DNA from: Pseudomonas sp. Seg1 | GTDB lineage: Bacteria > Pseudomonadota > Gammaproteobacteria > Pseudomonadales > Pseudomonadaceae | Direction: 5' to 3' | Assembly (NCBI RefSeq): GCF_018326005.1 | Contig: NZ_AP021903.1 | Span: 1,180,001 to 1,244,000 of the forward strand | DNA length: 64,000 bases | Shown here: piece by piece, positions 1 through 61,627 of the stretch | Layout: each line of letters begins with the position of its first letter | Numbering within the stretch: the first letter of the stretch is position 1 | Program-made: the position numbers and the translations under genes | Notes under the pieces: generated by a model | Seen by the model: the letters and a program-made list of their open reading frames with translations, nothing else | The model's database searches: none | What the model was told of the DNA's origin: nothing

Positions 1-262
1 ACTGATCGCGACCGAGCACCACGCCCGGACGACCTTCGTTGAACAGTTTGAAATCCAGCGCGGCCCAGAGGTTGGTGCCCAGACGCTTGATCGGGAATTC
101 ATCGTCGTAGTGAGTTTCCACAGCCTTGGTCCAGCGGCCGTTGAGCACCGTCGCATCGGCGTTGGTGCTGAAGCCGAAGAAGCTGCGCACCGACCACAGA
201 CCGAGCACCAGCAGGGTCACCAGGAACAGCGCGATGTAGAAGATGCGTAATGAGCGGGTCAT
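1..262 (-). CDS. algJ: AlgJ, alginate O-acetylation protein (partial, 5' end only)
   Basis: Only the N-terminal 87 codons are inside the window; the rest lies beyond base 1. The protein starts MTRSLRIFYIALF, a basic residue followed by a hydrophobic segment, which fits the uncleaved membrane anchor or signal peptide of AlgJ. AlgJ is a periplasmic SGNH-type acetylesterase-like protein that works with AlgI, AlgF and AlgX in acetylating mannuronate residues. The ATG lies 10 bases after the algI stop, so it is cotranscribed with algI. The identity rests on position (next after algI in the standard alginate order) and the N-terminal sequence; the catalytic motifs are not in view. Confidence 0.9.
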   Translation of the reverse strand, partial: MTRSLRIFYIALFLVTLLVLGLWSVRSFFGFSTNADATVLNGRWTKAVETHYDDEFPIKRLGTNLWAALDFKLFNEGRPGVVLGRDQ

Positions 263-59915: not shown

Positions 59916-60002
59916 TCAAGATCAAGAGCTGCAGCCGAGCTAACGCTCATCCTGTTGAGTGGTGAGAAGCAGGAGCGAGTAAGTGGCGCTGCTTTGCTTT
60001 TC

Positions 60003-60401
60003 TGTGGGAGCTGGCTTGCCAGCGATGGCGGCCTGACAGCCGACCAGTCTCTATCTGGATGCACACAATCCAATTGTGGGAGTGAGCCTGCTCGCGATAG
60101 CGACCTCACAACCAACCAATCACCCGCAGATGTACCTCAATCCCTGTGGGAGCTGGCTTGCCAGCGATGGCGGCCTGACAGCCGACCAGTCTCTATCTGG
60201 ATGCACACAATCCAATTGTGGGAGTGAGCCTGCTCGCGATAGCGACCTCACAACCAACCAATCACCCGCAGATGTACCTCAATCCCTGTGGGAGCTGGCT
60301 TGCCAGCGATGGCGGCCTGACAGACGACCAGTCTCTATCTGGATGCACGCAATCCAACTGTGGGAGCCAGCCTGCTGGCGATGAGGCCGCCCAGCCACCC
60401 C
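60003..60401 (+). repeat. 142-bp tandem array combining two REP types
   Basis: Units begin at 60003, 60145 and 60287. The first two are identical over 142 bases; the third is partial and diverged (several changes after about 80 bases). Each unit holds one GTGGGAGCTGGCTTGCCAGCGAT and one GTGGGAGTGAGCCTGCTCGCGAT REP core in the same orientation, so this is not a normal REPIN. Open frames across it are repeat artefacts. Confidence 0.92.
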
Positions 60402-60439: not shown

Positions 60440-60742
60440 AACCTTCCCACAAGGTTTTCAGGTTGTCCGTCGGACGTCCGGTCTCTAGTCTTTGGTTGTC
60501 ACCGCAAATCGGTGATCGGGTGTGAGAACCCGGTAAGAGGTTTTAATCAAACGTCAGTAGCACCATAATCGCCGCCAGCTCATTTGCTGCCGGTAATGTT
60601 CTATGGCGGCTGTGTGCGGGCGGACTTCGGTTCGGCCGGGTTGATCTCTTACCGGTTTCTCACTCCGTACATAGCTGCCACCTCTTCGTCGCGTGAGAAA
60701 CGACCAGTGATGGCTTCAATCATTTGATTAGAGATCATTGCA
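60440..60742 (+). ncRNA. Structured leader RNA before the DUF6124 gene, with alternative pairings
   Basis: About 300 bases with strong structure and no gene. Stems: AACCTT/AAGGTT (60440-60456), GTCC-GTC-GGAC (60465-60475), TCACCG/CGGTGA (60499-60515), and a long-range helix joining GTGAGAACCCGGTAAGAG (60522-60539) with CTCTTACCGGTTTCTCAC (60646-60663), 17 of 18 pairs. Inside it GCCGCCA / TGGCGGC form a further stem. TGATCTCT (60642-60649) is also the exact complement of AGAGATCA (60730-60737), the likely ribosome-binding region of the next gene, so two exclusive folds exist. No named RNA class is recognised. Confidence 0.6.
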
Positions 60743-61102
60743 ATGACCAAGCCCGTCCCCGACCCACCCGAAACCACCACCCCACTCGAAGAAGCCCTCC
60801 GCGCCGAAGAGCAAGCCCGAAACCGCGAAGCCATCAAACGCGCCCTCGACTTCTACCTGTGCCCCGAGCCCGCAAAGCCCCGCCGACCGAGCACCATGTT
60901 CATGGTCTGCCCCCAAGTCGACACCGAAAGCCTGCTCGCCCACGCCTGCGAATCGTTAGCCTCGGCAAGCACCGCCGCCAGCAACTTCGCCAATGAGCTA
61001 AGCGGTTCTCAGCGCAGCACGGTATTAGGCATCCAGCAAATCGTCATGCTCGCCGAACTGGCGGTAAACCGTGCGCTGGATCGGGTAGACCCACAAACCT
61101 GA
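60743..61102 (+). CDS. DUF6124-like small protein of pseudomonads
   Basis: 119 residues, starting MTKPVPDPPETTTPLEEAL. LDFYLCPEP, TESLLAHACESLASASTAASNFANELSG and a C-terminal NRALDRV are the pattern I recall for the DUF6124 family, small helical proteins of unknown role found in many copies in Pseudomonas. There is no signal peptide or membrane segment. Its weak ribosome site (AGAG, nine bases before ATG) may be controlled by the structured leader. Confidence 0.75.
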   Translation: MTKPVPDPPETTTPLEEALRAEEQARNREAIKRALDFYLCPEPAKPRRPSTMFMVCPQVDTESLLAHACESLASASTAASNFANELSGSQRSTVLGIQQIVMLAELAVNRALDRVDPQT

Positions 61103-61327: not shown

Positions 61328-61627
61328 ATGTCTGTTGATAAAAATGCTGTGCCTGCAATTACTTCTGTGAAAGACGATCAAGGCTCAGAGATTCCCAACG
61401 GTGGCACCACTACGGCAACTACTGTGCATCTGAGCGGGTCGGCAGTTGCTGGAGAGAATGTTCAAATTTTGGACAGTGTTGTTGTGAAGGGACAAGTAGT
61501 TGCGACTGCTGCCGGACACTGGGCTCTGAGCCTGACGGGTTTGACGCGAGCTCTTCATTCGATTACCGCGAGAGGAGAGGCTGGTTTTTCACCTGCTCGT
61601 ACATTTACTGTTATTGCAGGGAAGTAA
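61328..61627 (+). CDS. Small stand-alone Ig-like domain protein
   Basis: 99 residues. The pattern TTTATTVHLSGSAVAGENVQI..GHWALSLTGLTRALHSITAR..ARTFTVIAGK is that of a single bacterial Ig-like repeat, usually found many times over in large adhesins. Here it stands alone, without signal peptide or anchor. AGAAGGA precedes the ATG at a good distance. GC content is lower than that of the neighbours, which suggests recent gain or a fragment of a larger gene. Its function is unknown. Confidence 0.7.
   Translation: MSVDKNAVPAITSVKDDQGSEIPNGGTTTATTVHLSGSAVAGENVQILDSVVVKGQVVATAAGHWALSLTGLTRALHSITARGEAGFSPARTFTVIAGK

Follow-up and report, generated by a model that had tools for sequence, protein, structure and literature searches.

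The C4 RNA of phage P1 acts in trans and is cut from its precursor by RNase P to ∼77 nt. It is a repressor, according to the P1 annotation and the literature. The P1 GenBank record gives the order promoter, a1, b1, C4 (77 nt), a2, b2 and icd, with a2 starting 4 nt and icd 51 nt after C4. Both C4 and the c4-a1b1 element already figure in Weinberg 2010 (PMC2864571). In Salmonella, the Gifsy-1 IsrK-orf45-anrP leader is described similarly (PMC4825925): an upstream element pairs ∼30 nt downstream, the leader switches between two exclusive folds, an ∼80-nt RNA is processed from its downstream part, and IsrK activates translation in trans. That system is a single prophage locus driving an antirepressor (PMC4825925), whereas the one described here is multi-copy. 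Equating the IsrK leader with C4 is a suggestion of our own analysis; the terms 'C4 antisense' and 'C4 RNA' are absent from the accessible part of that paper. Acinetobacter baumannii carries Group 1 C4-like sRNAs, 21 in one genome and 15 of them full-length, with a variable loop and RNA-seq coverage consistent with processing; the accessible text reports no cognate adjacent targets, whereas in our case the gene that follows serves as target and cassettes were compared pairwise for their code (PMC5320573). Searches of the literature on C4 antisense RNA, RF01695, DUF6124 and DUF3077, mostly at a level short of full texts, found no link between C4 and DUF6124 and no multi-copy C4 code in Pseudomonas.

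Here we describe a Pseudomonas leader that is very probably a C4-type antisense cassette, made up of an upstream target, C4 and a DUF6124 reading frame, in which C4 would silence the gene and the upstream target would compete. What is new is the scale: a single genome has a nearly orthogonal multi-copy C4 set, and the codes vary from one species to another.

Results

The leader is a member of the C4 family

All Rfam models were searched against the window, by which we mean the whole 64-kb stretch of DNA analyzed. Two matches exceeded their cut-offs, C4 (RF01695) and c4-a1b1 (RF03163), and both lie in the leader of a DUF6124 gene. The C4 match, at 60599–60685 on the + strand, scores 70.1 bits (cut-off 45) and covers the whole model, positions 1–87. 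That of c4-a1b1, the upstream target of C4, occupies 60485–60536 on the same strand (50.3 bits, cut-off 46.7). By computation, this individual locus belongs to an RNA family already described, C4. An earlier sequence-only reading of this DNA had recognized no described RNA class in the leader; the class is RF01695 together with its target, RF03163. The Rfam isrK model (RF01394) aligns to the same stems and scores 26.7 bits against a cut-off of 50, so we do not file the leader as isrK.

Folded alone, 60605–60682 adopts the canonical P1/P2/P3 architecture as its MFE structure (−40.1 kcal/mol), with a long stem P1 enclosing P2, which has a UUCG-type loop, and P3, which has an open loop. This segment (+ strand, 78 nt) is the predicted mature C4, starting with GGC and ending, like the C4 of phage P1, with GCCACC. 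Its ends are placed by analogy with P1 and with the GGW/GGC starts seen in Acinetobacter RNA-seq (PMC5320573); as regards processing, the match to P1 consists of the GG start and the GCCACC end alone.

Three pairings, all between + strand elements, connect C4 with the rest of the leader. The loop of stem P3 (60635–60639 with 60652–60656), termed b′, spans 60640–60651, and within it TGATCTCT (60642–60649) is the exact 8-bp complement of AGAGATCA (60730–60737), the ribosome-site arm b2, which ends 5 nt before the ATG. A second C4 segment, a′ (GTTTCTCAC, 60655–60663), forms 9 bp, 8 of which were scored, with a2 (GTGAGAAAC, 60693–60701), the first target arm directly 3′ of C4. Upstream, the b1/a1 arm at 60522–60539 pairs with C4 nucleotides 60646–60663 at 17 of 18 positions, ungapped, at −26.8 kcal/mol. 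The long helix and the ribosome-site complement had both been proposed from the sequence, together with the idea that they exclude each other. Both hold, as the upstream target paired with C4 and as the P3 loop on b2, and mutually exclusive pairings bearing on the ribosome site are indeed present; the a′–a2 helix had been missed. The leader is also, as claimed, a structured RNA: the predicted fold of 60440–60760 is more stable than that of every one of 100 dinucleotide shuffles (z −4.08).

The likeness to the immI operon of phages P1 and P7 extends to the fold, the order a1-b1-C4-a2-b2-gene, similar spacing, the pairing arms (the same, by eye, in the P1 sequence), the relative places of a2 and b2 in the P1 annotation, and the position of b′ on the ribosome site. 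From the Rfam end of C4 to the ATG is 57 nt at this locus, and 45–57 nt in the 37 cassettes of this genome with a start codon. The genes differ. In the phages icd-ant lies behind C4, whereas the cassette in the window has DUF6124 and no antirepressor; a 99-aa ORF follows, and then a PTS gene on the opposite strand. A further difference is that about 37 mostly separate codes coexist here in one chromosome.

A promoter-like element lies at 60463–60491 (+ strand), with TTGTCC (60463–60468) and TAGTCT (60486–60491) separated by a 17-nt spacer. The pattern TTGNNN-16..18-TANNNT occurs 170 to 40 nt 5′ of C4 in 28 of 38 cassettes of the genome, compared with a mean of 2.0 and a maximum of 6 in mononucleotide shuffles (n = 200). 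A generic sigma-70 scan of the leader region returned no promoter. Judging from this pair of boxes, the RNA likely starts near 60498, upstream of the long helix at 60522, as the sequence-only reading requires, and the upstream target and C4 would then share one transcript. Three further hairpins had been assigned to the leader. One (60498–60516) falls within the predicted RNA, whereas the other two probably belong to promoter DNA, given the likely start. The first bases of the c4-a1b1 match overlap the −10-like box: the CUAguCU at the 5′ end of the RF03163 consensus coincides with it at this locus, and for that reason the model may include promoter DNA. Directly 5′ of the cassette, at 60002–60382, a 142-bp unit is repeated in tandem (2.7 copies, 97% matches); by eye the array looks REP-like.

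C4 and DUF6124 are both multi-copy

A covariance search of the genome gave 38 C4 matches, all over cut-off, and a Pfam search gave 37 DUF6124 matches, 36 of them over cut-off, which bears out the earlier assignment of the gene to a multi-copy Pseudomonas family. The 14 control genomes had neither C4 nor DUF6124. For 31 of the 38 C4s, a DUF6124 domain lies 161–229 nt downstream. The other seven have different neighbors: four small proteins without a Pfam match (L032, L059, L067 and L068), DUF3077 (L033), a protein resembling a Bro-N antirepressor (L036) and an apparent C-terminal DUF6124 remnant that has no start codon (L040). C4 is also retained beside a frameshifted DUF6124 (L058), whose syntenic counterpart in the close relative G019 (L151) reads as DUF6124 from its start. 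The antisense region of L040 scores highest against the leader of L050. At L074/L057, a second DUF6124 gene stands in tandem behind a C4-led one.

DUF6124 also occurs apart from C4. Locus L069 (771–823) has an open DUF6124 frame with a c4-a1b1 match upstream and no C4 match, the antisense seemingly lost. Since other DUF6124 genes, too, are found without C4 or target, C4 is not obligatory for retention of the gene. A C4-less DUF6124 gene at L070 (1257–1404) also matches DUF3077 and adjoins a PrrF sRNA match of 158.3 bits. DUF3077 and DUF6124 are probably related, because one protein scores over cut-off for both.

Might the C4 RNA itself be the working product, for example as immunity against phages with C4-type antirepressor operons, with DUF6124 a passenger? 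The seven of 38 C4s with no DUF6124 match behind them, the Bro-N and DUF3077 cases included, would fit, as would the persistence of C4 beside the remnant in L040 and the frameshifted gene in L058. At the one cassette compared with three relatives (L038), however, the repeated homologous unit, ∼690 bp, covers C4 and gene together; no clean empty site was found in the same comparison. The pairing and substitution data below bear on this possibility further.

Beyond this genome, 119 genomes of the genus (this one included) were searched, with at most 33 C4 candidates scored per genome: C4 occurs in 110 and DUF6124 in 95. With stricter filters than in the genus search, C4 was found in 62 of 398 genomes of the phylum.

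Predicted pairing of C4 is largely specific for its own leader

To gauge specificity, we took every combination of b′ loop and ribosome-site region among 37 cassettes and scored its best helix; L040 was dropped for want of a start codon. Own pairs averaged 8.6 bp and foreign pairs 5.0 bp, and none of 10,000 partner permutations reached the own mean. With b′ alone, the own site was best or tied in 31/37 cassettes and uniquely best in 28/37; with a′ alone, these counts were 29/37 and 12/37. When a′ and b′ were summed, the own pair was uniquely best for 36 of 37, only 1 of 1332 foreign pairs scored as high, and again no permutation (0/10,000) did so. At the window locus taken singly, the ribosome-site match is weak: when the leader tail (57 bases) was shuffled 2000 times with dinucleotides preserved, 69 shuffles reached it. 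Because own pairs across the family beat 10,000 of 10,000 permutations, we regard it as no chance match.

The upstream target follows the same rule. In 38 cassettes, the duplex of upstream target and C4 averaged −32.4 kcal/mol for own and −22.8 kcal/mol for foreign pairs; the own pair was best in 28 of 38, and 0 of 10,000 permutations equaled this. All three sites thus pair own-specifically by computation. Duplex energies of whole regions were less clear, placing the own target first in only 11 of 38 cases; we dropped this measure, as it took in GC-rich stems, and used loop-only helices instead.

G019 has 42 C4s, 41 over cut-off, and 40 were scored after removal of L117 and L118, which lack a start codon. 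For a′ and b′ together, the own pair was uniquely best in 33/40 and best or tied in 37/40, with 7 of 1560 foreign pairs scoring as high and 0 of 10,000 permutations. These data argue against C4 as a product independent of its gene, since for 36 of 37 C4s the best two-arm partner is their own leader. With codes largely separate, each cassette should control mainly itself. Our preferred reading is that the C4 circuits are numerous and self-specific, and that each prevents the translation of a small helical protein.

The code differs between many orthologous cassettes

By flank match and collinearity, 21 cassettes are syntenic between this genome and G019, and 17 C4s here and 21 in G019 have no syntenic partner. 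The b′ loop is the same in 7 of the 21 pairs, among them the window locus (L048/L140), where the ribosome-site arm is identical as well, and different in the other 14. Among these 14, own pairing with the ribosome site exceeded cross pairing in both directions in 11, with means of 8.5 bp (own) and 6.1 bp (cross); L051, L053 and L065 failed, and the G019 partner of the last (L159) is a broken gene whose start is probably mis-set. For b′ with the upstream target, 9 of the 14 pairs passed the both-directions test and 5 failed. Most of these orthologous loci thus carry different codes with the pairing kept. The sequence-only reading had named the retention of both pairings in homologues as one of its checks, and in most homologues examined they are kept, with differing letters; exceptions exist.

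For L046, L059, L064, L067 and L068, the syntenic partner is the closest copy in leader and also, with a margin of at least 7 percentage points, in protein, which indicates that the code changed within a kept cassette; all five passed on the ribosome site and four of five on the upstream target. In L033, L035, L053, L061 and L063 the leader is closer to another copy than to the syntenic partner, and in L041 it is equally close, so in these six leader exchange or replacement is possible. In the leader alignments inspected, the differences are concentrated in the upstream target, b′ and the ribosome site, and L067/L160 is the clearest case.

The proteins, in turn, show low dN/dS: computable values were 0.07–0.38 in 19 of the 21 syntenic pairs, 14 of them DUF6124, as point values with no significance attached. 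This speaks against DUF6124 as a passenger, and we consider it unlikely that the C4 RNA is the sole working product. That the cassette is a decaying, functionless prophage remnant is less likely still. The P1-type origin would suit such a remnant, and broken copies do exist (L040, L058, L072 and L073 here; L139 and L159 in G019). Yet the promoter-like element persists in 28 of the 38 cassettes, and the window locus retains the b′ loop and ribosome-site arm of its syntenic partner along with a DUF6124 protein that is 92% identical (dN/dS 0.12).

Folding balance and a model for control

In 22 of 37 cassettes, the one in the window included, the best fold of the full leader has the C4 arms paired chiefly with the upstream target. 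When the upstream part was shuffled, in five runs, this was so in 0–1 of 37. In the remaining 15 leaders the best fold does not favor the upstream target. Holding C4 in its canonical fold within the full leader costs a median of 2.5 kcal/mol. The 22/37 folds and this small median difference suggest that the RNA is poised between two nearly equal states, one with C4 folded and free to act and one with C4 bound up by the upstream target. Switching between two such folds has a precedent in the IsrK leader of Gifsy-1.

Exclusive pairings close in energy would also be expected of a riboswitch or protein-controlled leader, in which a ligand or protein chooses between the two, and the sequence-only reading had favored this. 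We give that alternative scarcely any weight. The leader contains an antisense RNA, and it is the loop of this RNA that pairs with the ribosome site. Moreover, the variable part, which differs between cassettes and species, is this loop and its targets, a pattern that a pairing code would produce and a ligand pocket would not. In a search confined to described aptamers, no riboswitch family in Rfam reaches its cut-off in the 64-kb window, and both parts of the leader match C4 antisense families; the riboswitch reading was rejected on these grounds.

For the C4-type cassette, we propose the following model. A single transcript from near 60498 would carry the upstream target b1/a1, C4 and the DUF6124 frame. 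C4 would be cut from this precursor, as by RNase P in P1, and would bind in trans, at two places, its own mRNA and sister mRNAs of equal specificity. There, a′ would grip a2 and the b′ loop would cover the ribosome site b2, leaving DUF6124 untranslated. Pairing of the upstream target with C4 would break the C4 fold and remove the antisense arms, and the ribosome site would be freed. In this scheme, silencing would fall to C4 and release to the upstream target. Processing by RNase P, action in trans and repression are inferred here, as is the releasing role of the upstream target. A further guess is that resident C4 captures the upstream target of new transcripts so that more C4 is freed, which could make the silent state self-sustaining and cassette-specific.

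The DUF6124 protein

The earlier identification of the controlled gene as DUF6124 is confirmed: the protein encoded at 60743–61102 (+ strand; 119 aa) matches PF19619 with 88.4 bits. An AlphaFold2 model has a helix at residues 14–39 and a helical hairpin (61–85 and 88–113), with mean pLDDT 82 and pTM 0.49; structure comparisons with this model were uninformative. Our literature search found no paper that mentions the family. The 99-aa ORF 3′ of the gene, at 61328–61627, has no Pfam match and resembles one Ig-like repeat by eye.

Multi-copy type I toxin–antitoxin families such as Ibs/Sib likewise comprise many small genes per genome, each held off by its own RNA. There the RNA lies opposite the gene, whereas C4 shares both strand and leader with its gene. 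DUF6124, at 119 aa, also differs from them in being without hydrophobic-peptide character by eye. Our guess is that DUF6124 acts as an effector that is usually kept silent, may harm either the cell or invading phages, and came from prophage accessory genes.

Taken more broadly, and tentatively, the genome may hold ∼37 parallel, nearly orthogonal C4 switches, with the code written thrice per cassette (upstream target, C4 loop and ribosome site) and rewritten at the same loci from one species to another through matched changes, with the proteins conserved. This would be a self-recognition system derived from phage immunity, in which latent DUF6124 effectors, toxin-like or anti-phage, stay silent and each is released on its own. 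If so, dozens of antisense/ribosome-site pairs could operate together in the same cell, largely free of cross-talk, and would form a natural library. The matched differences between species would show which bases carry the code, and the many natural variants would serve study of the upstream target's role. The finding ties DUF6124 to a known control RNA. It also suggests that a phage immunity device has been multiplied into a bacterial regulatory family present in most of the same-genus genomes sampled.

Cassettes in other bacteria and in viral contigs

From the phylum-wide C4 search we examined 29 loci, 23 of them outside the genus, leaving out L001 from the present genome. Three were cut by contig ends and placed by motif, one of them (L175) probably wrongly, and at three no reading frame was picked up. 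The b′ loop forms at least 8 bp with the leader tail at 23/29 loci, and at 18/23 outside the genus, as raw counts. The products of the genes at these loci include, by eye, short proteins of basic character, some that are antirepressor-like, and a Ner-like helix-turn-helix protein.

IMG/VR contains 65 viral contigs with genes for DUF6124 relatives, and among those of at least 20 kb (n = 49) the gene lies at least 5 kb inside in 19. We searched 17 of the 65 viral loci (15 of those 19, plus L213 and L224), and C4 was found at all 17. It lies on the same strand and at most 700 nt upstream in 16 of 17; L204 has it on the other strand.

The neighborhood of the viral cassettes contains defence genes, which we take as a lead, not as an enrichment. 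Upstream ORFs of at least 160 aa at 21 loci were compared with PADLOC and Pfam families (46 of the 48 found, two at locus starts being left out). Among the matches listed (25 of 86 PADLOC families) are restriction enzymes, a methylase, Abi_C, two SLATT proteins, four FitA-like antitoxin domains and others, with one or two members in most families. Three loci were examined in detail. At L244, DUF6124 lies between a restriction-enzyme-like gene and tail genes. L198 begins with a Dsr1-like gene, after which come a single C4, a pair of DUF6124-like frames and what by eye are tail genes, and at L216, Dsr2-like and Mrr-like genes precede DUF6124 and head genes come after it.
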